Shown here one piece after another: positions 4,066-50,335 of a DNA stretch of 64,000 nucleotides. Each line of letters opens with the position of its first letter. Position 1 is the first letter of the stretch. The notes beneath the pieces are model-generated. The model had not been told where the DNA came from. It made no database searches and worked only from the letters and a program-made list of their open reading frames with translations. This stretch comes from Ryuthela nishihirai. Taxonomy: Eukaryota; Arthropoda; Arachnida; Araneae; Heptathelidae. Location of the stretch: the NCBI GenBank assembly GCA_038380435.1, contig JAWZYU010000034.1:38564901-38628900 (forward strand), given 5' to 3'. The translations under genes were made by a program, and so were the position numbers.

Positions 4066-4797
4066 GGGGCGGGGGTGGCTTAGCCGGTAGCGCGCCAGGC
4101 TCGTAATCTGTAGTTCCCAGGTTCGAGTCCCAGCCGGGTCAGCGTTGATATTTATCTCGGCAAAATTTCCCCGCCCTGCCCACGGTCAGTAGGGGACACC
4201 GATGGGCTTGGAAAGGCCGCCGTCCGTCGGATGGGACGGTAAGCCGTGGTCCCGTGTGCGGGAGAGCCATACCGTGTGCACGTTAAAGAGCACGCTGGAT
4301 GGCCTTGACGGGAGGCTACCATCTGTCTCCCAACAGCTGTTCCAGTGGGTCCCCTCCCCCAACCTTCTCTGAGCCTTCGGGGTCCATGTGACCTGGCCAT
4401 TTAGCCCATGGTGTGCAAAAAAGTGCCGCTCAGAGGTAAAACAACCCAACGTTAAAGAACACGCTGGATGGCCTTGACGGGAGGCTACCATCTGTCTCCC
4501 AACAGCTGTTCCAGTGGGTCCCCTCCCTCAACCTTCTCTGAGCCTTCAGGGTCCATGTGACCTGGCCATTTAGCCCATGGTGTGCAAAAAAGTGCCGCTC
4601 AGAGGTAAAACAACCCAACGTTAAAGAACACGCTGGATGGCCTTGACGGGAGGCTACCATCTGTCTCCCAACAGCTGTTCCATTGGGTCCCTCCCCCAAC
4701 CTTCTCTGAGCCTTCGGGGTCCATGTGACCTGGCCATTTAGCCCATGGTGTGCAAAAAAGTGCCGCTCAGAGGTAAAACAACCCAACCCAACCCAAA
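4066..4797 (+). mobile_element. SINE1 with its 3' half triplicated (about 169-bp units)
   Basis: A full head and body are followed by three tandem copies of the segment from GTTAAAGAACACGCTGG to the CAACCC tail. Each repeat joins tail to body at the junction CAACCCAACGTTAAAGAAC. A TGTAACTTTG/TATAACTTTG repeat at about 4057-4066 and 4801-4810 brackets the whole. Either the already triplicated copy inserted as a unit, or the triplication followed insertion. Confidence 0.85.
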
Positions 4798-8221: not shown

Positions 8222-8612
8222 TGGTTGGGTTGGGTTGTTTTACCTCTGAGCGGCACTTTTTTGCACACCATGGGCTAAATGGCCAGGTCACATGGATCCC
8301 GAAGGCTCAGAGAAGGTTGGGGGAGGGGACCCACTGGAACAGCTGTTGGGAGACAGATGGTAGCCTCCCGTCAAGGCCATCCAGCGTGTTCTTTAATATG
8401 CACAGGGTATGGCTCTCCCGCACACGGGGACACGGCTTAACGTCCTATCCAACGGAGGGCGGCCTTTCCAAGCCCATCGGTGTCCCCTACTGACCGTGGG
8501 CAGGGCGGGGAATTTTTGCGGAGATAAATCTCAACGCTGACCCAGCTGGGACTCGAACCTGGGAACTACAGATTACGAGCCTGGCGCGCTACCGACTGAG
8601 CCACCCCCGTCC
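8222..8612 (-). mobile_element. SINE1 inserted into the satellite, 14-bp target duplication
   Basis: Full copy whose target duplication CTAAATGTCCACGT (8208-8221 and 8613-8626) is satellite sequence. The satellite therefore already existed when this copy landed. Confidence 0.92.
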
Positions 8613-11600: not shown

Positions 11601-12975
11601 GTGTTCTTCAACTTGCACACAATGGGCTAAATGTCCACGTCACAAGGACCCCATGGGCTCAGGGATAGTTAAGGGGAGGGGAACCAGGGGACAGGTGCTA
11701 AAAGACAGGCGGAAGCCTCACCTGAAGGCCATCCAGTGTGTTCTTCAACTTGCACACAATGGGCTAAATGTCCACGTCACAAGGACCCCATGGGCTCAGG
11801 GATAGTTAAGGGGAGGGGAACAAGGGGACAGGTGCTAAAAGACAGGCGGAAGCCTCACCTGAAAGCCGTCCAGTGTGTTCTTCAACTTGCACACAATGGG
11901 CTAAATGTCCACGTCACAAGGACCCCATGGGCTCAGGGATAGTTAAGGGGAGGGGAACCAGGGGACAGGTACTAAAAGATAGGCGGAAGCCCCACCTGAA
12001 GGCCGTCCAGTGTGTTCTTCAACTTGCACACAATGGGCTAAATGTCCACGTCACAAGGACCCCATGGGCTCAGGGATAGTTAAGGGGAGGGGAACCAGGG
12101 GACAGGTGCTAAAAGACAGGCGGAAGCCCCACCTGAAGGCCGTCCAGTGTGTTCTTCAACTTGCACACAATGGGCTAAATGTCCACGTCACAAGGACCCC
12201 ATGGGCTCAGGGATAGTTAAGGGGAGGGGAACCAGGGGACAGGTGCTAAAAGACAGGCGGAAGCCCCACCTGAAGGCCGTCCAGTGTGTTCTTCAACTTG
12301 CACACAATGGGCTAAATGTCCACGTCACAAGGACCCCATGGGCTCAGGGATAGTTAAGGGGAGGGGAACCAGGGGACAGGTGCTAAAAGACAGGCGGAAG
12401 CCCCACCTGAAGGCCGTCCAGTGTGTTCTTCAACTTGCACACAATGGGCTAAATGTCCACGTCACAAGGACCCCATGGGCTCAGGGATAGTTAAGGGGAG
12501 GGGAACCAGGGGACAGGTGCTAAAAGACAGGCGGAAGCCTCACCTGAAAGCCATCCAGTGTGTTCTTCAACTTGCACACAATGGGCTAAATGTCCACGTC
12601 ACAAGGACCCCATGGGCTCAGGGATAGTTAAGGGGAGGGGAACCAGGGGACAGGTGCTAAAAGACAGGCGGAAGCCCCACCTGAAGGCCATCCAGTGTGT
12701 TCTTCAACTTGCACACAATGGGCTAAATGTCCACGTCACAAGGACCCCATGGGCTCAGGGATAGTTAAGGGGAGGGGAACCAGGGGACAGGTACTAAAAG
12801 ATAGGCGGAAGCCCCACCTGAAGGCCGTCCAGTGTGTTCTTCAACTTGCACACAATGGGCTAAATGTCCACGTCACAAGGACCCCATGGGCTCAGGGATA
12901 GTTAAGGGGAGGGGAACAAGGGGACAGGTGCTAAAAGACAGGCGGAAACCTCACCTGAAGGCCATCCAGTGTGTT
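8613..12975. repeat. 137-bp satellite, about 32 units
   Basis: Head-to-tail units of exactly 137 bp, nearly identical, each containing GGCTAAATGTCCACGTCACA, GGGATAGTTAAGGGG and CATCCAGTGTGTTCTTCAAC. Every unit is recognisably the SINE1 3' half, read in the tail-to-body direction, lacking the roughly 32-bp tail block (GTTGGGTTGTTTTACC and neighbours). Variable sites include GAACAAGG/GAACCAGG, GGCCATCC/GGCCGTCC, GCCTCACC/GCCCCACC and a GGTACTAAAAGATAGG variant seen in two units about 822 bp apart. The 68-residue open frame in each unit is a by-product of the repeat and not a gene. Confidence 0.95.
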
Positions 12976-13662
12976 CTTTAACATGCATACAATGGGCTAA
13001 ATGTCCAGGTCATTACGACCCCATCTGCTCAGGGATAGTTCAGGGAAGGGGAACCAGGGGACAGCTGCTAAAAGACAGACGGAAGCCCCACCTGAAGACC
13101 ATCCATTGTGTTCTTTAATGGCACACAATGGGCTAAATGTCCAAGTCATTAGGACCCCATGTGCTCAGGGATAGTTAAGGGGAGGGGAACCAGGGGACAG
13201 GTGGTAAAAGACACATGCGGAAGCCTTACCTCAAGACAATCCATTGTGTTCTTTAATGGTACACAATGGGCTAAATGTCCAGGTCACAAGGACCTCATGG
13301 GCTCAGGGATAGTTAAGGGGAGGGGAACAAGGGGACAGCTGTTAAGAGAGAGACAGAAGCCTCATCTCAAGACCATCCAGTGTGTTCTTTAATGAACACA
13401 CTGGATGGTCTTGAGATGAGGTCTAGGTTACTAGGACCCCTTGGGCTCAGGGATAGTTAAGGGGTGGTGAACCAGGGGACAGCTGCTAAAAGATAGGCGG
13501 AAGCCTCACCTTAAGACCAGTGTGTTCTTTAATGGTACACAATGGGCTAAATGTCCAGGTGACAAGGACCCTTTCAGCTCAGAGATAATTAAAGGAAGGA
13601 GACCCACTAGACAGCTGTTAAGAGACAGATGGAAATGTTACATCAAAGACATCCAGCGTATT
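12976..13662. repeat. Divergent downstream edge of the satellite
   Basis: About five decayed units follow the homogeneous array, with the ancestral TTCTTTAATGGCACACAATG junction instead of TTCTTCAACTTGCACAC. A short inverted piece near 13390-13425 (GAACACACTGGATGGTCTTG) reverses the unit. Confidence 0.75.
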
Positions 13663-16218: not shown

Positions 16219-16531
16219 TTGGGTTGGGTTGTTTTACCTCTGAGCAGCACTTTTTTGCACACCATGGGCTAAATGGCCAGGTCACATGGACCCCGAAGGC
16301 TCAGAGAAGATTGGGGGAGAGGACCCACTGGAACAGCTGTTGGGAGACAGATGGTAGCCTCCCGTCAAGGCCATCCAGCGTGTTCTTTAACGTGCACAGG
16401 GTATGTCTCTCCCGCACACGGGGCCACGGCTTAACGTCCCATCCGACGGACGGCGGCCTTTCCAAGCCCATCGGTGTCCCCTACTGACCGTGGGCAGGGC
16501 GGGGAATTTTGCGGCGATAAATCTCAAGGCT
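16219..16531 (-). mobile_element. SINE1, tail-side part, split by the giant palindrome
   Basis: This is the tail and body of a SINE1 whose head resumes at 29,954. Its own target duplication, CCTAGTAGG, is at 16,210-16,218 and 30,037-30,045. The two parts were therefore one insertion before the 13.4-kb element entered. Confidence 0.93.
16526..16531. repeat. Left 6-bp target duplication of the Polinton-type element
   Basis: AAGGCT, matched by AAGTCT at 29,954-29,959 (one mismatch). Removing the element and one copy restores the normal SINE1 order CTCAAGGCTGACCCAGC. Confidence 0.85.
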
Positions 16532-16735
16532 AGTAGTATTGTGCCACCCGGGGAATCCCCCACTACTGCTTTCCCCCTATGACGTCACCGACCACCGCCC
16601 TATGACGTCGCCGACTACGCCCACTCCCTTATGACGCAACACACGTAATCATTACATAATCATTACGTAACAGGCCACGCCCCTTTATTAATAATTAATA
16701 ATTCCTCCCCCTTTATTAAACCCCCTTTCCCCCTC
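16532..16735. repeat. Left terminus with repeated TGACGTC motifs
   Basis: This is the outer part of the terminal inverted repeat. It contains CRE-like TGACGTCA (16,580-16,587), TGACGTCG (16,603-16,610) and TATGACGCAA, then an ATTACGTAACAGGCCACGCC block. The right end has two perfect TGACGTCA copies (29,874-29,881 and 29,897-29,904). Confidence 0.75.
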
Positions 16736-16998
16736 AGTGGCGCCATCTGTTGACAGTGAGAAGTACTATTTTCCCAAAAAACCCTTTATTTTCACTCTAA
16801 TTTCTCGTTTTCGGACCCCCCGGTCGCCCTACCTATATTTTAAGCCCTCCCCCTTATTAAAAACCCTCCTGGCGCCATCTGTTGACAGTGAGAAGTACTA
16901 TTTTCCCAAAAACCCCTTTATTTTAAGTCTAATTTCTCGTTTTCGGCCCCCACGGTCGACCTACCTATATTTTAAGCCCTCCCCCTTATGAAAAACCC
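16736..16998. repeat. 131-bp tandem repeat in the left arm, CTCF-like motif in each unit
   Basis: Two units, each starting GGCGCCATCTGTTGACAG (about 16,738 and 16,870), then GAGAAGTACTATTTTCCC and a CCCTCCCCCTTAT end. GCGCCATCTGTTG resembles the reverse of the CTCF core. The open frame across the repeat is a repeat artefact. Confidence 0.7.
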
Positions 16999-18090
16999 TC
17001 TGGTTGACCATTTTAAGGCCCCACTCCTTCACTCGGCTGATGTAAGTCTCAGAATAATTGCATGGAACGATTGACTGGTCTTAGAATAATTGTACAGAAA
17101 AGGATGATACAAAATTCCTTAGTAATTAAACACTCATCAAAATTCCCTTACCTCTATTAAAAATCATGCTACAGTTGAAATTCATTTTACTCTTACTGTT
17201 TCCATAGAAAATACCATAGGGGGAAATTAATAATGGTTTAAATTATTCGTAGGGATGACATGTTAAATCTGCTTTTAGAACACACGTCTGCAGTGGAAAT
17301 ATTTTCAAACTCCGTTAATCAACTCCCTAGTAATTAAACACTCGTCAAAATATTCCTCACCTTTATTAAAATCACTCCACGGTCGAAATAAAAATTAGTT
17401 TTCTGTAGATGTGTTTCACCGGGGGAAAAAAAAAAAAATCGTCCCTCGCTCTGTGGATTCCGTCCGACTGTCTTGGGTTCCCGGACTATACCGTGTACTT
17501 GCTGTGGCTTAGATGTGGGGCAGACATTTCAGATATTAACCTAGCATTCTTTATAACTAGCTTTTTCTATGCATTTCTTACATCAAAGCCAACACTAGCA
17601 CTGAACTCTTTTGAATGCAGATCTCAAATTGTAAATCAACTCGCAGAGTTGTATTTATTCCTTAGTAATTAAAACTCTTTGCTATTCATTTAGCCAGGAC
17701 GACTAAACGATTCCTTTATAATTAAAATTCCCTGCTATTAAACTCCCTAGTAATTAAACACTCATCAAAATTCCCTTACCTTTATTAAAAAAACCACCGT
17801 ACGGTTGAATCAGTTTTCTGTATATGCGTTTTATCGAAAAAAAAAAAACACTCCGGCCAACGAGACTCGAACGCACTACCCCAGCTTTACTCTATTCTTG
17901 AACAAGAATCAACCTGCAATGGAAAAGCCTCTGTTCCTGCATTCGTGGAGTCATGCACATACGTGTCACTCACTTACCGGTCAGGTAGCAAGCTTCGAAA
18001 CATCTCGTGACACGATGATGCAATCGCCCCGGGAGTTTGAGTGTCCAGCGCTCAGTGTGATTACTCATACGTTGTTGTTCTGTAAGGGTA
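16999..18090. repeat. Left arm, iterated noncoding segment
   Basis: A segment beginning AGTAATTAAACACTC and continuing into TTTATTAAAA recurs at about 17,121, 17,330 and 17,749. The last two are followed by a TTTTCTGTA(G/T)ATG block about 420 bp apart. The frames at 17,409-17,672 and 17,805-18,095 start at different points in the two arms because of homopolymer indels. I do not count them as genes. Confidence 0.5.
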
Positions 18091-18092
18091 GG

Positions 18093-18172
18093 TGACGTCA
18101 CAGCAAGGGGAAAGTAACGTGGAGTGACCAGCGAGTGACACGTATCAGAAGGCTGAGCACTGTTTATATATA
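18093..18172 (+). promoter_or_regulatory. Promoter of the left TAF9-like gene
   Basis: A perfect TGACGTCA at 18,093-18,100 is followed by a TATA element (TTTATATATA, 18,163-18,172). An arthropod-style initiator TCAGT lies at 18,204-18,208, about 40 bp downstream and slightly further than ideal. The ATG at 18,256 follows, giving a short 5' leader. Confidence 0.5.
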
Positions 18173-18255
18173 CAGGGGACTTGTTAAGACATGAACATTC
18201 TGCTCAGTGTTCTGTCGGTCTCTCGAGCTGTCATAGTTTTGAAGTCTCTGGTAGA

Positions 18256-18582
18256 ATGTCGAGAACGCGTCAATCGTTTTATGTGACTGCACGATGCATA
18301 TTGGCGTCTGTAGGTATTCCTTCATATCAGAAAGATATAACCTACGAGGAATGCTTGCAGACATTAATGAATGTTATAACCGACAAAATCCTGCATATGC
18401 TCAGTACGATGCAAGGTGAGGCGGTCATAGAAACGTACGACATTGCCCATGAGTTTCTATGCCGTGTGTGTTTTGCGGAAGTAGAAGCGTTAAACCACGT
18501 CAAAAGGATGGACTACCTATCGGTGGTCGAGGATGCCATGACCTCGATAGAGATTGCTGGCATTGTGGAGGTTGTAGGATAA
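18256..18582 (+). CDS. TAF9-like histone-fold protein, left copy
   Basis: 108 residues from the first in-frame ATG, downstream of a TATA box and TCAGT initiator. An upstream in-frame extension to 18,181 has only a TTG start, so I excluded it. Residues 9-68 align well with the histone fold of TAF9, a TFIID/SAGA subunit. Visible shared points are a leading ARCIL helix, GI followed by Y two residues later, a long central helix (LQTLMNVITDKIL) and an Asp-Ile before the last helix (TYDIAHEFL). A second helical segment (VEALNHVKRMDYL, DAMTSIEIAG) completes the protein. TAF9 normally pairs with TAF6, so a role in binding host TFIID-type partners is inferred, not shown. The copy in the other arm encodes the identical protein. 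The fold assignment is from alignment by eye. Confidence 0.6.
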   Translation: MSRTRQSFYVTARCILASVGIPSYQKDITYEECLQTLMNVITDKILHMLSTMQGEAVIETYDIAHEFLCRVCFAEVEALNHVKRMDYLSVVEDAMTSIEIAGIVEVVG

Positions 18583-21573
18583 TTAAAAACAACAACAACA
18601 AAAGGTTCTTTTCAGAACCACTTCATTTGTGTAGAAAGGATTATCGATCGTACAATTTCTGTTCACAACTCTTCTCTATCTATACATTTTTCTTCTCTAT
18701 CACCCCCCCCCCCCCGTTAACAGAGTAAATTTTAAAGGGATGTTTAACCTTCAGTATAATTTTACACAGTGTGTTAGGATTAACAACTCTTATAGCATAG
18801 TTATTGCGGGTAGGCTCCCTCTCCACTTTTAAAATTTAGATCTTACACCGACAGTCTTTTCATATACGTATTTTTATAACCATTTTAAAACCAACACTTA
18901 TTTCTTTTATCCCTAGCGATTACTGGTTGTTGCATTTTTTACTAGAAGAAACCCTACCCCTGCAGTAACAGCCCCCGCAGAAAATAAAAAAAAAAAAAAT
19001 GCTATCGGGCGAAAAATTAATAAAATCTGATTTTATTCGTCGTGATGAAAAATATTGATGGGGTAATAGGTTCGACTTAAAAGACTTCGTGTTCGGATCC
19101 TCACCACGGACAACCTCTCGCTGACGGACGGTTGAACCCTACGAAATTATTCCAAACGGGGAATCACAAGGTTTTTATTGACGAATGAATCTTGGACCTG
19201 TACTGCTTCCGTACATCGTGAAAACCCACTCACAGCCTTGATCCGTGTTCCCAATTTCCTTTACTAAGTCACTTCAAAAAACATTGTGATTGCAAAAGTA
19301 TGACTAACTGTTTTATTACGTCACGTTTTAAAAATACTTATTACTGTTGTAATCCGCTGTACGGGAGAGTAACACTGTTCGAAGAAAAATCAGATAAAAC
19401 AGTTTTTAAAAAAATCGTTTCCTCCGTCGTTTGCGTATGTCTCATCACGCTGGTGAAACCGGGTGAAAAAATATTTTTTTTTTGTACGAAGGAACTAACG
19501 CTACTCGATGCAGTCCCAGTTACATGCTTTTACCGAGTAAAGACTGTGCGCCCGAATGTTAAAAGTAGAATTCATACGTTTCCGTAAAAAAAAAAACTTT
19601 AGTTCCTGCTTAAAGGAGTATGGTTCGATTCAGGAAGAATAGGATTTGACCTCGTGCATTAGAAAAGGGAACAAATCTGTCCCCGGTGTCCTTTGTTAGG
19701 TGGTAGTATTAGTATCCTTATACAAGCTCACTTCAAATTTTCATATGACATTCTGGGGTTGAGTTTCAACCTTTTTATTTTTTCCAACCGCGATAATGCG
19801 CAGTTTTCTGCGGAACGCGAGCGACTTCGACGCCAAGGACGACCCGCACTAAACGATACGACCGTGCACTAGAAAACCGTGAACGGACTTGTGTGAAACG
19901 TAATGTACAAAGCTTGACAACAGTAATATAGACTGGGATCCTCGCTCACTATACTATCATAAGCCTCGAGAAATTATCAAATATGAATAGACCTCTATAA
20001 AGTTCCGATCCCACAATCTTCTGAGTTCATTCCCCGGTCGATGCTGTCAGGACCACAAGGGATGTTTTACACCTTCAACGACTTTTTCTGACATTCGCTA
20101 ATCAAAGTGTCTATCTACACATCAGACTTGTCATTACATCGACAAACTACCTGTCCATAGGCTGAGTAAGCATTTAGAATGAAAAATTGAGTCAGCTTCA
20201 CGACACAGATTCGTAAAACGCTCATTAATTATTTTGTGAGAGAAAGCATGCATAAAGTTCAAACACTAATACATCTTCCCTTTCTAATAAACCATACGAT
20301 CAAAGCAGATAAATTGCAAGCATCATCGGATCTGATTCCGTATATCTGCTTACGACGAAAATCTCACAATAGCCTATTCAGTACTTTAACCCCCCGATAC
20401 AGTACGTTACTAGGTCGTTTAACTAAATTACGTGCATAAACGAAAATGTAAAGGGATATCTGTAAATTCGCACAACGGGATAGGTGAATATTTTTACAAT
20501 TCTTTTGAAGGCAGAATAACTGTGACGAGAGAGAAAGTATAAAAATGCAGTGGGATGGCTGTAAAAACAACACATTACAGCGCAAATACTGTAAGATAGA
20601 AAAAAACGACTATTAACAAGTGTCATATAAGGAGCGATCGATAAAAGTCACACCGTAGCGGAAGGAGTAATACAGGAAAAATCATAAAATATTAACCCCC
20701 CTCCCCCACGCTAGTAAATCACGGTCCATTGCGTACACACGGATGAATATCACAAAAATACTTTGCATATAGTAAAGAACCACCGAAGTTTGGAAATTTA
20801 AAATCTGAAAACTCACTGTTTATAGTATTTCCGTGAAAAGTCACCCCCCAGAATCGAGATCTAGCTCTGTCGCCAGTTATTCCAGCGTACTATCTCTTTT
20901 CAGCACGTTTGAATAAGTGCATGTGAAGGTGGCTAGCTGCAGACACAAGCTGTTCGACAAAGATAGGATGTTTCACTACAATCTAACACGGAGATGTCTG
21001 TTAAGTTATTTTTTCCTCCTATTTCTACACTAGTGTGGAAGTCTTAGAACAAGTGGTTCGGGTTAGCACACGTTTTTGATATTATCTTGTTTGTCAATCT
21101 GAAAGAACACTGTCTGTGGAACATTACCTCTCTGCAAGCTAGTACTAATTACTTCACGATTCTGAGGGACGAAGGTTGTAATCGTTGGCAGATATTTTTC
21201 AGAAATATGTAATCAACCATAGTGTTCGGATATTTGATCCACAGTAAGACATGAACGTTGTTTACCTGTCATCAGCGACCCCTTCTACGGATCGTATGAG
21301 AGGTAATTGTTACGACAATTAGCTACGTGAAGTCGTGTTTATTTTAAAAGCAAAGACACACTAATTACCGACTAGCTAGAGAACGATATATTAACCTGCT
21401 AAAGTTTGATTTTAACGATCAGATAGTGTATATATCATCACTATTTTAGTTCGTAATAATATTCCAACTCTTAAAGGAAATATTGTCTCGTTATAAGCGA
21501 TTACATACAAAGAGATACACACTCTATACTTTAAATCTATAGAGACAACGATCACTATCCATGGAACACATCT
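18583..21573. other. Left arm, 3 kb without a convincing gene
   Basis: Frames here are short and do not stay intact in the mirror copy. For example, the 19,300-19,587 frame differs in its C-terminal half at 26,922-27,185 because of an A-run length change. A poly-C/G run lies near 18,705. At about 21,183-21,237 there is a fragment of the Tc1-type MITE end (AATCAACCATAGTGTTCGG), also present in the right arm. Confidence 0.5.
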
Positions 21574-21578
21574 GTGAA

Positions 21579-21642
21579 ATATCACCACATTTTTGTTTTT
21601 AACGTACGGTTGAATCGTTCTACGATGCTAGCTTTGGTTTCC
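21579..21642. repeat. Outer member of the inverted pair around the left PC4-like gene
   Basis: A 63-bp segment containing TTTTTAACGTACGGTTGAATC and CGATGCTAGCTTTGG. An inverted copy lies at 23,086-23,148, so the PC4-like gene is bracketed by inverted repeats. Confidence 0.75.
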
Positions 21643-21813
21643 CATCTCTTTCTTTTACACTCACCCGATATAAAACATTCGACCCAACATAGCTTGCTAG
21701 CTGTGCGAGGTCTTGATACAGAGAACAATATTAACACTTCTAAGGCTGACCTTAAAATCCCCGTTAACTATACAAAAGAAATCACATTGACAAAAATATC
21801 AGAGACATTCATA

Positions 21814-21819
21814 TTTATT
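21814..21819 (-). terminator. Poly(A) signal of the left PC4-like gene
   Basis: AATAAA on the minus strand, 22 bp after the stop codon. The mirror-image copy is at 24,663-24,668. Confidence 0.6.
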
Positions 21820-21841
21820 TACATTAAGGTCACATTAATAT

Positions 21842-22744
21842 TTAGTTCGTACATACCAGTTCACCGTGCACCTCTTTTAGTACTGTTGCAAAGTTCAATT
21901 TAGACATAAATGTAATATTAGCAGGACGATTTAGTTCAATACATGATTCTTCCACAAAACGTTCGGCAATATCGGTTAAATTAACGTTTCTTACCACTTC
22001 TGTGAAATAATCGTAAGCTGATTCAGCGTTTATGGTGAGGCACGAATGGCGAAGTTGACTCGGATGATCCACTTCACACCCGAAACAGTTCTTACGTAGC
22101 AGCGTAAACAGTTCTTTTCGGAGAACTGTTTTCAAAGTCCGCTTTAAACAGTCCATAAGCTTTACGAAATCACTGTTGTCTTGTTCAAGGGGTCGATCGT
22201 TAGATGGTGGGCTTCGAGGAAGATTTGCCGCTAATTCTACCTTCCGCATTGCATTCCAAAATTTACCGTTTTCAAACTTCAGAGCCATCAAACTGTAGGT
22301 GATTGGATCGCATAAATCTGTCAACTGCTGCCACTGTTCGACGCTGAGTCGAACCGATGACGAAAATATAAGTCCTCCGTCACGGGGGATGCTTTTTTTA
22401 ACGACCACGCCGTGTCCACCTTTGAGCACGACGAGGCAAACCATAGCGTCCAGTTCATACTCGCCGTATTCGACATCTTCGAACGCTTCGACGATTGTAG
22501 ACGCATACGAAACCAGTTCATGCCACTGCTCTTCAGACAGCATCACACCGTCCTTTGTAGGATATAGTTTTAACGAGTCATCACTCTGGAACGCACGTAT
22601 GTGCACTTTAGGATATGACCGATATTCACAAACGCTCGCAAACAAATCCGATCCGAGTTGAAACATAAGTCTATCATCATCTCTAACAGCAAGTCGCTTC
22701 GCAGGAAGATCACCATCGGTCAGGGGACGTTTAGCACAAGCCAT
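21842..22744 (-). CDS. Double PC4/Sub1-like domain protein, left copy
   Basis: 300 residues. The N-terminus has a basic nuclear-localisation-like stretch (KRPLTDGDLPAKR). Residues 27-90 match the single-stranded-DNA-binding domain of the coactivator PC4/Sub1: MFQLG start, SVCEY, a VHIR strand, then a Gly-containing turn and LSEEQWHEL. Residues 100-155 are a second, more divergent copy ending RLSVEQWQQL. Residues 195-215 are a Lys/Leu-rich helix, and C220, C223, H227, H233 and C235 form a possible zinc site. PC4 proteins bind melted DNA and basal factors at Pol II promoters, so the likely role is transcription or replication of the element (inference). Start chosen by the ATG after a TATA and CCAAT promoter. 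Compared with the right copy only residue 190 differs (Asn here). Confidence 0.8.
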   Translation of the reverse strand: MACAKRPLTDGDLPAKRLAVRDDDRLMFQLGSDLFASVCEYRSYPKVHIRAFQSDDSLKLYPTKDGVMLSEEQWHELVSYASTIVEAFEDVEYGEYELDAMVCLVVLKGGHGVVVKKSIPRDGGLIFSSSVRLSVEQWQQLTDLCDPITYSLMALKFENGKFWNAMRKVELAANLPRSPPSNDRPLEQDNSDFVKLMDCLKRTLKTVLRKELFTLLRKNCFGCEVDHPSQLRHSCLTINAESAYDYFTEVVRNVNLTDIAERFVEESCIELNRPANITFMSKLNFATVLKEVHGELVCTN

Positions 22745-22794
22745 AGCAAGTCGATACTGGAAAAAATAATGCCTTACTGCCCGTCGAAGGGTAA

Positions 22795-22843
22795 TACTTA
22801 TACCTTAAACCTGTGACGTGTCCCTGTAACTCCATCCCATTGG
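22795..22843 (-). promoter_or_regulatory. Promoter of the left PC4-like gene
   Basis: Minus-strand TATAAGTA (22,795-22,802) lies about 50 bp upstream of the ATG, with CCAAT further upstream at about 22,839-22,843. The mirror copy in the right arm has the same spacing. Confidence 0.55.
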
Positions 22844-23085
22844 TCGAGATCCGGTAGATTTGTCATCTCTTAGTAAACATAATGACGTCTACAAATATTT
22901 ACGAGCTTGTATAGACGTGCTTTCGAAATATGCATGTGGTGCTCCTTTAAAAAGGAAATCGTGGGAGCTTTTGATCACAAAAACCTTTCAGAACACCTCT
23001 GAAATTACAAACAGATAAGGGGGGGGGGGGGGGTTGAATTCACTAACAGAGGATTTCAAAAGCATCTTAAAAACACACTCATAAT

Positions 23086-23148
23086 GAAACCAAAGCTAGC
23101 ATCGTAGAACGATTCAACCGTACGTTAAAAACAAAAACGTGGTGATAT
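23086..23148. repeat. Inner member of the inverted pair, left arm
   Basis: GAAACCAAAGCTAGCATCG to GTGGTGATAT, complementary to 21,579-21,642. An outer poly-G run lies at about 23,020-23,033. Confidence 0.75.
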
Positions 23149-23159
23149 AAAGAGGGGTG

Positions 23160-23300
23160 TTTTAATAAGGGGAGTGGCCTGCCACGTAATGATTATGTAA
23201 TGGGGAGTGGCCTGCCACGTAATGATTAAACGTGATGATAACACGTAACGATATAAGGGGAGTGGCCTGCCACGTAATGATTATGTAATGATTACGTGGC
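23160..23300. repeat. Centre of the palindrome, repeats resembling the element ends
   Basis: Three plus-strand copies of a GGGGAGTGGCCTGCCACGTA motif (from about 23,169, 23,204 and 23,259) meet one inverted copy at 23,291. The block ATTACGT..CAGGCCAC..CCCCTT..ATTA is also present about 130 bp inside the true ends (ATTACGTAACAGGCCACGCC). The centre therefore looks like two degenerate subterminal regions joined head to head. The AGTAGTATTGTGCC terminus itself is absent. Confidence 0.7.
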
Positions 23301-23332
23301 AGGCCACTCCCCTTATTAAAACACCCCTCTTT

Positions 23333-23396
23333 ATATCACCACGTTTTTGTTTTTAACGTACGGTTGAATCGTTCTACGATGCTAGCTTTGGTTTCA
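23333..23396. repeat. Inner member of the inverted pair, right arm
   Basis: 63 bp complementary to 24,841-24,903. Mirror of 23,086-23,148. A poly-C run follows at about 23,449-23,463. Confidence 0.75.
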
Positions 23397-23638
23397 TTAT
23401 GAGTGTGTTTTTAAGATACTTTTGAAATCCTCTGTTAGTGAATTCAACGCCCCCCCCCCCCCCTTATCTGTTTGTAATTTCAGAGGTGTTCTGAAAGGTT
23501 TTTGTGATCAAAAGCTCCCACGATTTCCGTTTTAAAGGAGCACCACAGGCATATTTCGAAAGCACGTCTATACAAGCTCGTAAATATTTGTAGACGTCAT
23601 TATGTTTACTAAGAGATGACAAATCTACCGGATCTCGA

Positions 23639-23706
23639 CCAATGGGATGGAGTTACAGGGACACGTCACAGGTTTAAGGTATAAGTATTACCCTTCGACG
23701 GGCAGT
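23639..23706 (+). promoter_or_regulatory. Promoter of the right PC4-like gene
   Basis: CCAAT at 23,639-23,643, TATAAGTA at 23,680-23,687 and a GCAGT initiator-like site at about 23,702-23,706, ahead of the ATG at 23,738. Confidence 0.55.
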
Positions 23707-23737
23707 AAGGCATTATTTTTTCCAGTATCGACTTGCT

Positions 23738-24640
23738 ATGGCTTGTGCTAAACGTCCCCTGACCGATGGTGATCTTCCTGCGAAGCGACTTGCTGTTAGA
23801 GATGATGATAGACTTATGTTTCAACTCGGATCGGATTTGTTTGCGAGCGTTTGTGAATATCGGTCATATCCTAAAGTGCACATACGTGCGTTCCAGAGTG
23901 ATGACTCGTTAAAACTATATCCTACAAAGGACGGTGTGATGCTGTCTGAAGAGCAGTGGCATGAACTGGTTTCGTATGCGTCTACAATCGTCGAAGCGTT
24001 CGAAGATGTCGAATACGGCGAGTATGAACTGGACGCTATGGTTTGCCTCGTCGTGCTCAAAGGTGGACACGGCGTGGTCGTTAAAAAAAGCATCCCCCGT
24101 GACGGAGGACTTATATTTTCGTCATCGGTTCGACTCAGCGTCGAACAGTGGCAGCAGTTGACAGATTTATGCGATCCAATCACCTACAGTTTGATGGCTC
24201 TGAAGTTTGAAAACGGTAAATTTTGGAATGCAATGCGGAAGGTAGAATTAGCGGCAAATCTTCCTCGAAGCCCACCATCTAACGATCGACCCCTTGAACA
24301 AGACAGCAGTGATTTCGTAAAGCTTATGGACTGTTTAAAGCGGACTTTGAAAACAGTTCTCCGAAAAGAACTGTTTACGCTGCTACGTAAGAACTGTTTC
24401 GGGTGTGAAGTGGATCATCCGAGTCAACTTCGCCATTCGTGCCTCACCATAAACGCTGAATCAGCTTACGATTATTTCACAGAAGTGGTAAGAAACGTTA
24501 ATTTAACCGATATTGCCGAACGTTTTGTGGAAGAATCATGTATTGAACTAAATCGTCCTGCTAATATTACATTTATGTCTAAATTGAACTTTGCAACAGT
24601 ACTAAAAGAGGTGCACGGTGAACTGGTATGTACGAACTAA
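23738..24640 (+). CDS. Double PC4/Sub1-like domain protein, right copy
   Basis: 300 residues with the same architecture as the left copy: basic N-terminus, PC4-like domain 27-90, second PC4-like domain 100-155, Lys/Leu-rich helix and C220-X2-C-X3-H-X5-H-X-C motif. It has Ser at residue 190 where the left copy has Asn. The two genes diverge from the palindrome centre with starts 993 bp apart. I saw no other coding difference, and overlapping frames also read identically. Both copies are therefore intact and nearly identical in DNA, unlike the more diverged flanks. Two PC4 domains in one chain is unusual for cellular PC4, which is a single-domain protein that dimerises. Confidence 0.8.
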   Translation: MACAKRPLTDGDLPAKRLAVRDDDRLMFQLGSDLFASVCEYRSYPKVHIRAFQSDDSLKLYPTKDGVMLSEEQWHELVSYASTIVEAFEDVEYGEYELDAMVCLVVLKGGHGVVVKKSIPRDGGLIFSSSVRLSVEQWQQLTDLCDPITYSLMALKFENGKFWNAMRKVELAANLPRSPPSNDRPLEQDSSDFVKLMDCLKRTLKTVLRKELFTLLRKNCFGCEVDHPSQLRHSCLTINAESAYDYFTEVVRNVNLTDIAERFVEESCIELNRPANITFMSKLNFATVLKEVHGELVCTN

Positions 24641-24662
24641 ATATTAATGTGACCTTAATGTA

Positions 24663-24668
24663 AATAAA
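24663..24668 (+). terminator. Poly(A) signal of the right PC4-like gene
   Basis: AATAAA 22 bp after the stop codon. Confidence 0.6.
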
Positions 24669-24840
24669 TATGAATGTCTCTGATATTTTTGTCAATGTGA
24701 TTTCTTTTGTATAGTTAACGGGGATTTTAAGGTCAGCCTTAGAAGTGTTAATATTGTTCTCTGTATCAAGACCTCGCACAGCTAGCAAGCTATGTTGGGT
24801 CGAATGTTTTATATCGGGTGAGTGTAAAAGAAAGGGATGG

Positions 24841-24903
24841 GAAACCAAAGCTAGCATCGTAGAACGATTCAACCGTACGTTAAAAACAAAAATGTGGTGA
24901 TAT
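24841..24903. repeat. Outer member of the inverted pair, right arm
   Basis: GAAACCAAAGCTAGCATCG to GTGGTGATAT, complementary to 23,333-23,396. Confidence 0.75.
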
Positions 24904-27900
24904 TTCACAGATGTGTTCCATGGATAGTGATCGTTGTCTCTATGGATTTAAAGTATAGAGTGTGTATCTCTTTGTATGTAATCGCTTATAACGAGACAAT
25001 ATTTCCTTTAAGAGTTGGAATATTATTATGAACTAAAATAGTGATGATATATACACTATCTGATCGTTAAAATCAAACTTTAGCAGGTTAATATATCGTT
25101 CTCTAGCTAGTCGGTAATTAGTGTGTCTTTGCTTTTAAAATAAACACGACTTCACGTAGCTAATTGTCGTAACAATTACCTCTCATACGATCCGTAGAAA
25201 GGGTCGCTGATGACAGGTAAACAACGTTCATGTCTTACTATGGATCAAATATCCGAACACTATGGTTGATTACATATTTCTGAAAAATATCTGCCAACGA
25301 TTACAACCTTCGTCCCTCAGAATCGTGAAGTAATTAGTACTAGCTTGCAAAGGGGTAATGTTCCACAGACAGTGTTCTTTCAGATTGCCAAACAAGATAA
25401 TATCAAAAACGTGTGCTAACCCGAACCACTTGTTCTAAGACTTCCACACTAGTGTAGAAATAGGAGGAAAAAATAACTTAACAGACATCTCCGTGTTAGA
25501 TTGTAGTGAAACATCCTATCTTTGTCGAACAGCTTGTGTCTGCAGCTAGCCACCTTCACATGCACTTATTCAAACGTGCTGAAAAGAGATAGTACGCTGG
25601 AATAACTGGCGACAGAGCTAGATCTCGATTCTGGGGAGTGACGTTTCACGGAAATACTATAAACAGTGAGTTTTCAGATTTTAAATTTCCAAACTTCGGT
25701 GGTTCTTTACTATATGCAAAGTATTTTTGTGATATTCATCCGTGTGTACGCAATGGACCGTGATTTACTAGCGTGGGGGAGGGGGGTTAATATTTTATGA
25801 TTTTTCCTGTATTACTCCTTCCGCTACGGTGTGACTTTTATCGGTCGCTCCTTATATGACACTTGTTAATAGTCGTTTTTTTTCTATCTTACAGTATTTG
25901 CGCTGTAATGTGTTGTTTTTACAACCATCCCACTGCATTTTTATACTTTCTCTCTCGTCACAGTTATTCTGCCTTCAAAAGAATTGTAAAAATATTCACC
26001 TATCCCGTTGTGCGAATTTACAGATATCCCTTTACATTTTCGTTTATGCACGTAATTTAGTTAAACGACCTAGTAACGTACTGTATCGGGGGTTAAAGTA
26101 CTGAATAGGCTATTGTGAGATTTTCGTCGTAAGCAGATATACGGAATCAGATCCGATGATGCTTGCAATTTATCTGCTTTGATCGTATGGTTTATTAGAA
26201 AGGGAAGATGTATTAGTGTTTGAACTTTATGCAGCTTTCTCTCACAAAATAATTAATGAGCGTTTTACGAATCTGTGTCGTGAAGCTGACTCAATTTTTC
26301 ATTCTAAATGCTTACTCAGCCTATGGACAGGTAGTTTGTCGATGTAATGACAAGTCTGATGTGTAGATAGACACTTTGATTAGCGAATGTCAGAAAAAGT
26401 CGTTGAAGGTGTAAAACATCCCTTGTGATCCTGACAGCATCGACCGGGGAATGAACTCAGAAGATTGTGGGATCGGAACTTTATAGAGGTCTATTCATAT
26501 TTGATAATTTCTCGAGGCTTATGATAGTATAGTGAGCGAGGATCCCAGTCTATATTACTGTTGTCAAGCTTTGTACATTACGTTTAACACAAGTCCGTTC
26601 ACGGTTTTCTAGTGCACGGTCGTATCGTTTAGTGCGGGTCGTCCTTGGCGTCGAAGTCGCTCGCGTTCCGCAGAAAACTGCGCATTATCGCGGTTGGAAA
26701 AAATAAAAAGGTTGAAACTCAACCCCAGAATGTCATATGAAAATTTGAAGTGAGCTTGTATAAGGATACTAATACTACCACCTAACAAAGGACACCGGGG
26801 ACGGATTTGTTCCCTTTTCTAATGCACGAGGTCAAATCCTATTCTTCCTGAATCGAACCATACTCCTTTAAGCAGGAACTAAAGTTGTTTTTTTTTTTAC
26901 GGAAACGTATGAATTCTACTTTTAACATTCTGGCGCACAGTCTTTACTCTGTAAAAGCATGTAACTGGGACTGCATCGAGTAGCGTTAGTTCCTTCGTAC
27001 AAAAAAAAAAATATTTTTTCACCCGGTTTCACCAGCGTGATGAGACATACGCAAACGACGGAGGAAACGATTTTTTTAAAAACTGTTTTACCTGATTTTT
27101 CTTCGAACAGTGTTACTCTCCCGTACAGCGGATTACAACAGTAATAAGCATTTTTAAAACGTGACGTAATAAAACAGTTAGTCATACTTTTGCAATCACA
27201 ATGTTTTTTGAAGTGACTTAGTAAAGGAAATTGGGAACACGGATCAAGGCTGTGAGTGGGTTTTCACGATGTACGGAAGCAGTACAGGTCCAAGATTCAT
27301 TCGTCAATAAAAACCTTGTGATTCCCCGTTTGGAATAATTTCGTAGGGTTCAACCGTCCGTCAGCGAGAGGTTGTCCGTGGTGAGGATCCGAACACGAAG
27401 TCTTTTAAGTCGAACCTATTACCCCATCAATATTTTTCATCACGACGAATAAAATCAGATTTTATTAATTTTTCGCCCGATAGCATTTTTTTTTTATTTT
27501 CTGCGGGGGCTGTTACTGCAGGGGTAGGGTTTCTTCTAGTAAAAAATGCAACAACCAGTAATCGCTAGGGATAAAAGAAATAAGTGTTGGTTTTAAAATG
27601 GTTATAAAAATACGAAATACGTATATGAAAAGACTGCCGGTGTAAGATCTAAATTTTAAAAGTGGAGAGGGAGCCTACCCGCAATAACTATGCTATAAGA
27701 GTTGTTAATCCTAACACACTGTGTAAAATTATACTGAAGGTTAAACATCCCTTTAAAATTTACTCTGTTAACGGGGGGGGGGGGTGATAGAGAAGAAAAA
27801 TGTATAGATAGAGAAGAGTTGTGAACAGAAATTGTACGATCGATAATCCTTTCTACACAAATGAAGTGGTTCTGAAAAGAACCTTTTGTTGTTGTTGTTT

Positions 27901-27904
27901 TTAA
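24904..27904. other. Right arm, 3 kb without a convincing gene
   Basis: Mirror of 18,583-21,573. The MITE-end fragment is at about 25,245-25,302. Scattered point differences and homopolymer indels from the left arm break every open frame seen there. Confidence 0.5.
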
Positions 27905-28231
27905 TTATCCTACAACCTCCACAATGCCAGCAATCTCTATCGAGGTCATGGCATCCTCGACCACCGATAGGTAGTCCATCCTTTTGACGTGGTTTAACGC
28001 TTCTACTTCCGCAAAACACACACGGCATAGAAACTCATGGGCAATGTCGTACGTTTCTATGACCGCCTCACCTTGCATCGTACTGAGCATATGCAGGATT
28101 TTGTCGGTTATAACATTCATTAATGTCTGCAAGCATTCCTCGTAGGTTATATCTTTCTGATATGAAGGAATACCTACAGACGCCAATATGCATCGTGCAG
28201 TCACATAAAACGATTGACGCGTTCTCGACAT
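27905..28231 (-). CDS. TAF9-like histone-fold protein, right copy
   Basis: 108 residues, identical in sequence to the left copy, with the same ATG choice. The histone-fold alignment covers residues 9-68 (ARCIL, GI..Y, LQTLMNVITDKIL, TYDIAHEFL). It is transcribed inward from the right end, so both TAF9-like genes point toward the centre and both PC4-like genes point outward. Confidence 0.6.
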   Translation of the reverse strand: MSRTRQSFYVTARCILASVGIPSYQKDITYEECLQTLMNVITDKILHMLSTMQGEAVIETYDIAHEFLCRVCFAEVEALNHVKRMDYLSVVEDAMTSIEIAGIVEVVG

Positions 28232-28314
28232 TCTACCAGAGACTTCAAAACTATGACAGCTCGAGAGACCGACAGAACACTGAGCAGAATGTTCATGTCT
28301 TAACAAGTCCCCTG

Positions 28315-28394
28315 TATATATAAACAGTGCTCAGCCTTCTGATACGTGTCACTCGCTGGTCACTCCACGTTACTTTCCCCTTGCTGTGACGTCA
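28315..28394 (-). promoter_or_regulatory. Promoter of the right TAF9-like gene
   Basis: Mirror of the left promoter: TATA element at 28,315-28,324 and TGACGTCA near 28,387-28,394. Confidence 0.5.
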
Positions 28395-29488
28395 CCTACC
28401 CTTACAGAACAACAACGTATGAGTAATCACACTGAGCGCTGGACACTCAAACTCCCGGGGCGATTGCATCATCGTGTCACGAGATGTTTCGAAGCTTGCT
28501 ACCTGACCGGTAAGTGAGTGACACGTATGTGCATGACTCCACGAATGCAGGAACAGAGGCTTTTCCATTGCAGGTTGATTCTTGTTCAAGAATAGAGTAA
28601 AGCTGGGGTAGTGCGTTCGACTCTCGTTGGCCGGAGTGTTTTTTTTTTCGATAAAACGCATATACAGAAAACTGATTCAACCGTACGGTGGTTTTTTTAA
28701 TAAAGGTAAGGGAATTTTGATGAGTGTTTAATTACTAAGGAGTTTAATAGCAGGGAATTTTAATTATAAAGGAATCGTTTAGTCGTCCTGGCTAAATGAA
28801 TAGCAAAGAGTTTTAATTACTAAGGAATAAATACAACTCTGCGAGTTGATTTACAATTTGAGATCTGCATTCAAAAGAGTTCAGTGCTAGTGTTGGCTTT
28901 GATGTAAGAAATACATAGAAAAAGCTAGTTATAAAGAATGCTAGGTTAATATCTGAAATGTCTGCCCCACATCTAAGCCACAGCAAGTACACGGTATAGT
29001 CCGGGAACCCAAGACAGTCGGACGGAATCCACAGAGCGAGGGACGATTTTTTTTTTTTCCCCCGGTGAAACACATCTACAGAAAACTAATTTTTATTTCG
29101 ACCGTGGAGTGATTTTAATAAAGGTGAGGAATATTTTGACGAGTGTTTAATTACTAGGGAGTTGATTAACGGAGTTTGAAAATATTTCCACTGCAGACGT
29201 GTGTTCTAAAAGCAGATTTAACATGTCATCCCTACGAATAATTTAAACCATTATTAATTTCCCCCTATGGTATTTTCTATGGAAACAGTAAGAGTAAAAT
29301 GAATTTCAACTGTAGCATGATTTTTAATAGAGGTAAGGGAATTTTGATGAGTGTTTAATTACTAAGGAATTTTGTATCATCCTTTTCTGTACAATTATTC
29401 TAAGACCAGTCAATCGTTCCATGCAAATTATTCTGAGACTTACATCAGCCGAGTGAAGGAGTGGGGCCTTAAAATGGTCAACCAGAGG
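28395..29488. repeat. Right arm, iterated noncoding segment
   Basis: Mirror of 16,999-18,090, with the same repeated GAGTGTTTAATTACT segments. Confidence 0.5.
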
Positions 29489-29752
29489 GTTTTTCATAAG
29501 GGGGAGGGCTTAAAATATAGGTAGGTCGACCGTGGGGGCCGAAAACGAGAAATTAGACTTAAAATAAAGGGGTTTTTGGGAAATAGTACTTCTCACTGTC
29601 AACATATGGCGCCAGGAGGGTTTTTAATAAGGGGGAGGGCTTAAAATATAGGTACGGCGACCGGGGGGTCCGAAAACGAGAAATTAGAGTGAAAATAAAG
29701 GGTTTTTTGGGAAAATAGTACTTCTCACTGTTAACAGATGGCGCCACTGAGG
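29489..29752. repeat. 131-bp tandem repeat, right arm
   Basis: Mirror of 16,736-16,998. The outer unit keeps AACAGATGGCGCC (near 29,733). The inner unit has changed to AACATATGGCGCC, which would spoil the CTCF-like core. Confidence 0.7.
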
Positions 29753-29953
29753 GTGAAAGGGGGGTTTAATAAAGGGGAGGAATTATTAATTATTAATAAA
29801 GGGGCGTGGCCTGTTACGTAATGAGTATGTAATGATCACGTGTGTTGCGTCATAGGGGAGTGGGCGTGGTCGGTGACGTCATAGGGGTGTGGTCGGTGAC
29901 GTCATAGGGGGGAAAGCACTAGTGGGGGATTCCCCGGGTGGCACAATAGTACT
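29753..29953. repeat. Right terminus
   Basis: Complement of the left terminus with about nine differences in the outer 150 bp, ending GGGTGGCACAATAGTACT. Confidence 0.8.
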
Positions 29954-30036
29954 AAGTCTGACCCAGCTGGGACTCGAACCTGGGATCTACAGCTTACGAG
30001 CCTGGCGCGCTACCGACTGAGCCACCCCGCCCCAAA
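29954..30036 (-). mobile_element. SINE1, head-side part, split by the giant palindrome
   Basis: It begins with the duplicated target AAGTCT, continues GACCCAGCTGGGACTCGAAC through the A box and ends GCCACCCCGCCCC. The SINE target duplication CCTAGTAGG follows at 30,037-30,045. Confidence 0.93.
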
Positions 30037-31976: not shown

Positions 31977-33136
31977 TCCGCAAAATTCCCCGCCCTACCC
32001 ACGATCAGTAGGGGACACCGATGGGCTTGGAAAGGCCGCCGTCCATCGGATGGGTTGGGTTGTTTTACCTCTGAGCGGCACTTTTTTGCACACCATGGGC
32101 TAAATGGCCAGGTCACATGGACCCCGAAGGCTCAGAGAAGGTTGGGGGAGGGGACCCACTGGAACAGCTGTTGGGAGACAGATGGTAGCCTCCCGTTAAG
32201 GCCATCCAGCGTGTTCTTTAACGTTGGGTTGTTTTACCTCTGAGCGGCACTTTTTTACACACCATGGGCTAAATGGCCAGGTCACATGGACCCCGAAGGC
32301 TCAGAGAAGGTTGGGGGAGGGGACCCACTGGAACAGCTGTTGGGATACAGATGGTAGCCTCCCGTTAAGGCCATCCAGCGTGTTCTTTAACGTTGGGTTG
32401 TTTTACCTCTGAGCGGCACTTTTTTACACACCATGGGCTAAATGGTCAGGTCACATGGACCCCGAAAGCTCAGAGAAGGTTGGGGGTGGGGACCCACTGG
32501 AACAGCTGTTGGGAGACAGATGGTAGCCTCCCGTCAAGGACATCCAGCGTGTTCTTTAACGTTGGATTGTTTTACCTCTGAGCGGCAATTTTTTTCACAC
32601 CATGGGCTAAATGACCAGGCCACAAGGACCCCGAAGGCTCAGAGAAGGTTGGGGGAGGGGACCCACTGGAACAGCTGTTGGGAGACAGATGGTAGCCTCC
32701 CGTCAAGGCCATCCAGCGTGTTCTTTAACGTGCACAGGGTATGGCTCTCCCGCACACGGGGCCACGGCTTAACGCCCATCCGACGGACGGCGGCCTTTTC
32801 AAGCCTATCGGTGTCCCCTACTGACCGTGGGCAGGGCGGGGAAATTTTGCGGAGATAAATCTCAACGCTGACCCAGCTGGGACTCGAACCTGGGAACTAC
32901 AGATTACGCCGTCGGATGGGACGTTAAGCCGTGGCCCCGTGTGCGGGAGAGCCATACCCTGTGCACGTTAAAGAACACGCTGGATGGCCTTGACGGGAAA
33001 TTACCATCTGTCTCCCAACAGCTGTTCCAGTGGGTCCCCTCCCCCAACCTTCTCTGAGCCTTCGGGGTCCATGTGACCTGGCCATTTAGCCCATGGTGCG
33101 CAAAAAAGTGCCGCTCAGAGGTAAAACAACCCAACC
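31977..33136 (+). mobile_element. 5'-truncated SINE1 interrupted by a second SINE1
   Basis: The 5' part (31,977-32,053) starts within the head at CCGCAAAATTCCCC, and the rest resumes at 32,909. The target duplication CCCCAGATCAGT is at 31,965-31,976 and 33,137-33,148. The truncation at the 5' end with an intact tail fits incomplete reverse transcription. Confidence 0.88.
32054..32908 (-). mobile_element. SINE1 with four 169-bp units of its 3' half, nested
   Basis: Four tandem tail-to-body units with the junction TTCTTTAACGTTGGGTTG (the last GTTGGATTG) precede one body and partial head ending at ACAGATTACG. It sits inside the plus-strand SINE1, and the host motif CCGTC.(AT)CGGATGG is duplicated at 32,039-32,053 and 32,909-32,919. 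Confidence 0.88.
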
Positions 33137-49772: not shown

Positions 49773-50335
49773 GGGGCGAGGGTGGCTCAGTCGGTAGCGC
49801 GCCAGGCTCGTAATCCGTAATTCCCAGATTCGAGTCTAACCTGGCTCAGCGTTGAGATTTTTCTCCGCAAAATTCCCCGCCCTGCCTACGATCAGTAGGG
49901 GACACCAATGGGTTTGGAAAGACTGCCGTCCGTCGGATGGGACGTCAAGCCGTGGCCCCGTGTGCGGGAGAGCCATACCCTGTGCACGTTAAAGAACACG
50001 CTGGATGGTCTTGACGGGAGGCTACCATCTGTCTCCCAACAGCTGTTCCAGTAGGTCCCCTCCCCCAACCTTCTCTGAACCTTTGGGGTCTATGTGACCT
50101 GGCCATTTAGCCCGTGGTGTGCAAAAAAGTGCCGCTCAGAGGTAAAACAATCCAACGTTAAAGAACACAGTGGATGGCCTTGACGGGAGGCTACCATCTG
50201 TCTCCCAACAGCTGTTCCAGTGGGTCCCCTCCCCCAACCTTCTCTGAGCCTTCGGGGTCCTTGTGACCTGGCCATTTAGCCAATGGTGTGCAAAAAAAGT
50301 GACGTTCAGAGGTAAAACAACCCAACCTTACCTTC
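49773..50335 (+). mobile_element. SINE1 with its 3' half duplicated
   Basis: Full head and body, a first tail at about 50,150 with the junction CAATCCAACGTTAAAGAAC, then one more 169-bp unit ending CAACCCAACC. Confidence 0.85.

Follow-up and report, generated by a model that had tools for sequence, protein, structure and literature searches.

Fold-back defective genomes are a typical by-product of the replication of linear viral DNA, and long inverted arms around a short middle are also found in Foldback (FB) and other long-terminal-repeat transposons. Polintons, also referred to as Mavericks, are thought to be virus-like, though Polinton particles are described as not having been observed in the relevant passages of an account of vertebrate Mavericks (PMC8097293). 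The end motif seen most often in vertebrate Mavericks is, in these passages, a tandem AGT tip, and repeats of the end motif are proposed there to assist jumping back during protein-primed replication (PMC8097293). Parts of the literature on two linear DNA viruses are also relevant: adeno-associated virus (AAV) makes both symmetric and asymmetric snapback genomes (PMC8235507), and adenovirus has a packaging domain near its left end and incomplete particles that hold left-end DNA (PMC5033970). Here, we describe a palindrome of 13,422 bp in the genome of the spider Ryuthela nishihirai (assembly GCA_038380435.1), located at positions 16532-29953 of a stretch of 64,000 nucleotides (the window; contig JAWZYU010000034.1, positions 38,564,901 to 38,628,900). 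We consider it likely that this palindrome is a non-autonomous Polinton derivative, formed as a fold-back inverted dimer that is replicated and integrated by the enzymes of intact Polintons.

A first-pass annotation, made from the letters of the window alone, had described a palindrome with arms of about 6.65 kb and a spacer of about 100 bp, and had assigned to it Polinton-type tips and a 6-bp target duplication. The arms and spacer have the following exact coordinates, and the flank and tip letters bear out the rest of the description.

16526..16531, no strand: left target-site duplication, AAGGCT (flanking letters read)
16532..23190, plus strand: left palindrome arm, 6659 bp (self-alignment and reading of the centre)
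23191..23290, no strand: central spacer, 100 bp, Polinton-subterminal repeat units with one extra tandem unit, a class A centre as defined below (alignment to the tip region)
23291..29953, minus strand: right palindrome arm, 6663 bp (self-alignment and reading of the centre)
29954..29959, no strand: right target-site duplication, AAGTCT, with one mismatch to the left copy (flanking letters read)

Self-blastn returns a single inverted alignment, 16531-29954, at 98.66% identity. When the arms are aligned globally with the centre included there are 69 mismatches over 6698 compared columns, and without the centre there are 45 (99.32% identity). Chance could not plausibly account for an inverted match of such length (6.6 kb) and identity (99%). 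The tips of the element read AGTAGTATTGTG on the left and, on the reverse strand, AGTACTATTGTG on the right, and segments of the centre align to the region ~90-194 from the tip with 69.6-93.2% identity.

The palindrome belongs to a family that is multiplied across the genome, which encompasses 3.11 Gb in 1680 contigs. The first 1 kb of the arm has at least 59 matches (40 candidates were scored), and a 29-bp tip pattern is found at 59 places against none in a reversed control. The repeated AGT tip motif and the terminal inverted repeats are present in the family, and a related mirror centre is carried at more than 100 places. Ten palindromic or asymmetric copies were read through both ends: the window, C6_88155, the outer element of C19, C26_9701, C306, C23, C26_3631, C6_8535, C29 and C816. 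The 6-bp target duplications are perfect and all different in nine of the ten, the window having its one mismatch. In a control that paired flanks across 12 elements (10 palindromic and 2 full-length), none of 132 pairings matched with one mismatch or fewer; the duplication test permitted one extra AGT at a tip (the right tip of C26_9701), whereas the control did not. Three copies, C23, C26_3631 and C816, are asymmetric, with one long and one shorter arm, and two palindrome copies have insertions of other elements nested within them. The term defective derivative, which the first-pass annotation had used, is correct but incomplete, as the palindromes have been amplified into a large family, in which there are two or more separate fold-back centres.

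These copies also bear on whether the palindrome could be an artefact of assembly or sequencing, a concern raised by the fold-back chimeras that occur in some long-read libraries. A chimera of this kind would invert the flanks as well, whereas nine other loci have different flanks with perfect direct 6-bp duplications; moreover, the arms have diverged in several copies, and the nested elements of two copies speak against it too. An assembly error is unlikely because independent loci have different flanks and perfect direct duplications, and we give an explanation through fold-back chimeras next to no weight.

Two loci of the family have peculiarities of their own. In the middle of a palindrome of class B (see below) lies L032 (C6:88162001-88170000), an element with long gag and pol frames, which we take to be a Gypsy-type retrotransposon. 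L063 (C18:28839390-28839745) is an element of ~245 bp with two Polinton tips. It lacks a direct duplication, and its host flanks are inverted repeats of each other; it may be the product of a fold-back that continued into the adjoining DNA, or may be situated midway in a further inverted repeat.

The genome also contains full-length Polintons with these ends. The element at C31:48303808-48320661 is 16.9 kb in length, has tips as in the palindrome and is flanked by a perfect 6-bp duplication, CATGGG. Its domains include DNA_pol_B_2 (4.9e-42), rve (2.6e-15) and PC4 (1.5e-5, just under the cut-off), and it therefore supplies what the first-pass annotation had named as support for a Polinton origin, namely polB and a retroviral-type integrase between the same ends. 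Further frames of C31, presumably a protease-ATPase and the major and minor capsid proteins, are named by position; a sub-threshold Pox_A32 match of the ATPase frame (0.0049) is the sole Pfam signal among the capsid-like and ATPase frames. In a second Polinton, C17, the ends alone were read and the polB side was assigned by homology to C31. Its polB-side end corresponds to the outer part of the arm.

16532..18046, plus strand: outer 1.5 kb of the left arm, homologous to the C17 polB-side end (arm 1-1515, 89.7%); mirror at ~28439-29953

The polB-side end of C31 matches arm 317-1515 at 83.4%. At its other end, C17 has 80.6% identity to the shared terminal repeat (arm 1-412) and, over 64 bp, 79.7% identity to the palindrome centre. 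The match of the arm to the polB-side end continues past the terminal repeat that both ends share, and each outer end of the palindrome is thus a polB-side Polinton end. One end of the parent is thus placed at both ends of an inverted dimer, as is characteristic of snapback genomes. The palindrome shares its ends with full-length Polintons of the same genome and has no detected enzymes of its own, and these are the attributes of a non-autonomous derivative.

The region C19:57103900-57127400 (L034-L036) is composed of an asymmetric palindrome whose PC4 gene has received the insertion of a separate full-length Polinton, the ends of the two being ~75-78% alike. We considered the region at C19:57104-57127k as the parent of the palindromes and rejected it, as its core of polB and integrase (INT) belongs to the inserted Polinton, whose frames (polB, integrase, capsid-like) are presumed assignments. 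The integrase of this nested Polinton is at least 96% identical at 150 of 150 scored places, 149 of which have no stop within the match (from 7709 first-look candidates). Such matches point to a very large and recent burst of autonomous Polintons across the genome. Because of these matches, the copy number of the palindromes and their duplications, the palindromes would seem to be mobilised in trans by intact relatives.

The genes and gene remnants of the arms are as follows.

23738..24640, plus strand: PC4-domain protein gene of 300 aa, right arm (PF02229, E 6.1e-10)
21842..22744, minus strand: PC4-domain protein gene of 300 aa, left-arm mirror, with 1 difference in 1000 bp from the right-arm copy
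23345..23634, minus strand: decayed Polinton integrase core with an in-frame stop, right arm, adjoining the centre (tblastn with the C31 integrase)
22848..23137, plus strand: mirror of the decayed integrase core, left arm (coordinates by reflection, from arm symmetry)
24841..24909, plus strand: second short integrase fragment, right arm, on the far side of PC4 (47.8% over 23 aa, E 0.001); mirror at ~21573-21641
27905..28306, minus strand: open frame of 133 aa with no assigned family (open reading frame); mirror at 18181-18582

When the right arm was searched with 15 proteins, of which two full-length relatives supplied 13, polB gave only a chance-like best match (E 0.012 over 27 aa), and for the capsid and packaging genes MCP reached E 0.27, the protease-ATPase E 0.29 and the penton nothing up to 0.5. 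No remnant of a polymerase, ATPase, protease or capsid gene is therefore detectable in the arm by this search, in agreement with the view of the first-pass annotation that the core replication and capsid genes are absent. Instead of the rve integrase of an autonomous Polinton, the palindrome carries only the decayed core with its in-frame stop, which in the right arm matches the C31 integrase at 32% over 77 aa and at 50% over 20 aa (E 1.3e-10). Homologues of the integrase number 870 at E <= 0.001, the best being ~48-49% identical among the 120 listed, and a comparison of the fragment at 24715-24900 with the PDB gave only a chance-like match (E 0.77). We rejected an arrangement of PC4 followed by integrase as in C31, since the integrase remnant lies between PC4 and the centre and points at the centre.

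PC4 is the sole intact gene of a recognised family in the palindrome. No homologue was found for it at E <= 0.001 among 1793 candidates. One of the searched proteins, a small one of 121 aa, matches it at E 0.004. The frame is free of stops in 21 of the 26 arm copies examined. The ratio of nonsynonymous to synonymous differences (pN/pS), pooled over non-independent pairs, is 0.60 between elements and 0.96 within them, and ranges from 0.29 to 1.45 in seven single pairs, of which one is undefined. Selection on PC4 is only suggested by these values. One arm has a disrupted PC4 in 4 of 12 two-armed elements, and in none of the 12 are both arms disrupted. A broken arm is seen in 0 of 6 elements with one arm difference or fewer and in 4 of 6 with three or more (two-sided p ~0.06), which we do not use as evidence. 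The 133-aa frame (ORF141) has no Pfam and no PHROG match; a small protein of 142 aa matches this 133/141-aa frame at E 0.006, a relationship that is unproven. A segment of ~574 bp with the 133-aa frame (arm 1632-2205) is missing from both arms in several sister palindromes.

The centres of the palindromes fall into two unrelated classes, termed A, which includes the window, and B. Class B is represented by C26_9701, C6_88155 and C816, together with C4 and C16, which were read at the centre only. Its members share most of the outer 4 kb with class A, but turn inside a different PC4-like gene. At C6:89084330-89084730 there is an unfolded class B site, in which this gene runs uninterrupted through the position of the turn. 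From GTAAGGG on, the site is collinear with the class B loop and one arm (95.8% over 165 bp), and the other arm joins at the same GTA. The junction thus has a 3-nt match and a 26-nt loop, and a strand ending in TAC that paired with the internal GTA and was then extended would give exactly this arrangement. A second class B state, AAGGGATGT-CGAATTATCT-ACATCCCTT, is that of a palindrome refolded at TGT/ACA with a 10-nt loop. The combination of a short loop, a micro-match and the parental order on one side, which is expected of snapback genomes, is found for class B only. Pattern searches of the genome identify the unfolded form at 15 loci among the 19 listed with 2 mismatches, the first fold at 14 exact loci, and the second fold, for which the loci are classed by mismatch count and not by read letters, at 20 exact loci and 48 within 2 mismatches.

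Mirror matches were scored at 40 class B loci: they are full-length in 37, shorter but still past the centre in two, and confined to the self-symmetric centre in one. A more lenient count, in which mirror hits overlapped in 40 of 40 loci, was dropped, as the query is symmetric in itself over its first 186 bases. By match length the mirror runs past the centre in 39 of 40 loci, and therefore the palindromes themselves have been amplified. The unfolded class B segment is found at 40 or more places, and because one pair of these (C30:6201076 and 6202402) is divergent, some unfolded sites may sit in longer palindromes.

It is at this junction that a fold-back can be weighed against an expansion of the terminal repeats, in which the repeats grew inward, through strand switching or recombination between Polinton ends, until they met and without any single fold-back. 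The asymmetric copies C23, C26_3631 and C816 could be intermediates of such a process, although asymmetric forms are also seen among AAV snapback genomes as described in part of that literature (PMC8235507). The class B junction, with its unfolded order, 3-nt match and 26-nt loop, and the nested turn with its 10-nt loop are traces of folding back, and make terminal-repeat expansion quite improbable.

Class A is composed of the window, C29, C306, C6_8535, C26_3631, C23 and L052-L059. It turns in subterminal repeats ~110-140 bp from the expected position of the tip, at units of the GTAAT/ATTAC type, and in several copies sequence has been lost from one side of the centre. A search with one class A centre sequence gave 135 places in the genome, a few of which are local repeats, and none in the control. 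A PC4 query finds 10 divergent pairs among 40 matches. With the window centre as query, 17 of the 40 scored loci span both arms, six more have two divergent arms by script, and C30 forms a seventh by eye. The centre of the window suggests a class A fold-back, and an origin of this centre from the right end is supported only by the content (PC4, INT) and by the subterminal repeats.

The two arms of an element mostly group together. In a 1-kb segment of PC4 from 26 arm copies, 11 of 12 palindromes have arms that pair as sisters within the element, in four cases through identity; these 12 are the window, eight of the nine other divergent pairs from the PC4 query and three further fetched copies. 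The arm tree requires 11 changes, which is the lowest number possible; shuffling gives a mean of 19.7, and none of 200 shuffles is as low. Element-specific deletions and insertions are present in both arms, and the arms of C26_9701 have no mismatches and one gap over 6.27 kb. The single shared centre of class B implies one founding palindrome. The class B element C16 has 7-9 differences in 616 bases from other elements and one from its own other arm; its arms are alike yet unlike those of other class B elements, and therefore the arms must have been homogenised after the palindrome existed.

Arm-to-arm gene conversion, as has been proposed for Y-chromosome palindromes, could in principle achieve this, with ordinary transposition spreading the palindromes and conversion in the chromosome keeping the arms alike afterwards. 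Mismatches that gather near the outer edge, as fading conversion would give, are seen in the outermost 500 bp of the window (18 of 45) and C6_8535 (12 of 21). The corresponding counts are 7 of 20 in C6_88155, 4 of 14 in C306 and 5 of 35 in C29, with none in C26_9701. However, the divergence between arms is 1.3% in C20 and 1.5% in C25, close to the distance from the nearest other elements (1.4-1.7%), so the arms have not been kept alike, and homogenisation does not seem to be continuing in the chromosome. In addition, changes that disable PC4 are private to one arm in all four of the two-armed elements that have them. Chromosomal gene conversion is thus an unlikely explanation, and the arms would instead have been identical at insertion.

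The best reading, in our view, is that the palindromes are fold-back (snapback) defective genomes of a protein-primed element, whose replication and integration in trans are probable and whose arms were homogenised before insertion. Linear DNA would be replicated by protein priming at the tips of the element. A strand that extends inward from the polB-side end would fold back at a match of 3-5 nt and copy itself to the same end, so that the product is an inverted dimer with two polB-side ends and thus two origins and two integrase sites. The dimer would then be copied and inserted with Polinton enzymes supplied in trans. As a single strand of the palindrome can fold to a hairpin, one arm would template the other, resulting in identical arms before each insertion, and the divergence of the arms thereafter would act as a built-in clock for each insertion. 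Helper dependence, packaging and hairpin replication are all conjectural parts of this scheme.

Several observations weigh against it. The evidence comes from integrated copies, and no free or packaged palindromic DNA is visible in it. By script, 17 of the 40 scored class A centre loci have a single arm (C30, one of these, is two-armed by eye), and no unfolded class A monomer or site was found among the matches listed. At the class B locus C1:50058524, the mirror match is barely longer than the portion of the query that is symmetric in itself. Only a single unfolded class B locus was read, over 401 bases, the others being known by pattern alone; its presumed orientation to the element end is deduced, and a longer palindrome could contain it. 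The palindrome and C31 are only distantly alike in integrase (32-50%) and PC4 (33%), over short stretches, and a direct autonomous parent with closer versions of both was not found. In the arm tree, the two C10 arms do not come out as a sister pair, and stars mark only 5 of the 19 inner branches. Finally, the gathering of mismatches in the outermost 500 bp is not predicted by simple copying of the whole arm; tip exchange with other Polintons may account for it.

A more specific version of the fold-back reading can be put forward tentatively, at somewhat below an even chance. Here the palindromes are Polinton 'mirror satellites', defective snapback genomes turned heritable that undergo protein-primed hairpin replication outside the chromosome, starting from one kind of end only, with the two arms rebuilt on a single template in each cycle, and that refold into new centres and reinsert via the integrase of intact Polintons. 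If this is true, then chromosomes hold a dated fossil record of defective interfering (DI) genomes and of an unseen free phase of Polinton DNA. More generally, amplified and integrated fold-back genomes would provide indirect evidence for a free, protein-primed replication phase of Polintons, and DI-like parasitism of an endogenous virus would become testable in genome data.

Elsewhere in the window, a tRNA-Thr gene is located directly beside a 36.6-copy array of a 137-bp unit with 96% matches (8538-13628), and related short arrays of a 169-bp unit are found on both strands at 4280-4787, 32054-32731, 42573-43755 and 49986-50330.

No description of palindromic Polintons was found in literature searches judged from titles, the beginnings of abstracts and a few passages. 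Polintons, their derivatives and snapback genomes are already known; what appears to be new is an amplified, integrated family of palindromic Polintons with readable fold-back junctions. The palindrome resembles the vertebrate Polinton/Maverick, as described in the passages cited above, in its (AGT)2//(ACT)2 end motif, 6-bp duplication and homologous ends (PMC8097293). It is also like these elements in its integrase remnant and in having full-size relatives of ~17 kb in the same genome. It differs from them in that polB, ATPase, protease and capsid genes are not detectable, the terminal repeat is the whole element and both ends are polB-side. Unlike Foldback, which was compared by description and not by sequence, the palindrome has tips, a duplication length and gene remnants of the Polinton type. 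Adenovirus, in the part of its literature used here, has a linear genome with a terminal protein at each end, as in the Polinton model (PMC5033970). The DNA of its incomplete particles is not integrated, unlike the palindromes, and a polB-side packaging signal in Polintons would be an analogy only. The snapback genomes of AAV may be regarded as a close functional parallel. According to the passages on these subgenomes, they too are self-complementary and join one end to its mirror copy, exist as symmetric and as asymmetric molecules, and replicate with supplied Rep and helper functions (PMC8235507), for which the putative replication of the palindromes in trans would be the counterpart. AAV is nevertheless a parvovirus with another replication initiator, and its snapback molecules are found in virions, whereas the palindromes are integrated chromosomal families flanked by target duplications.

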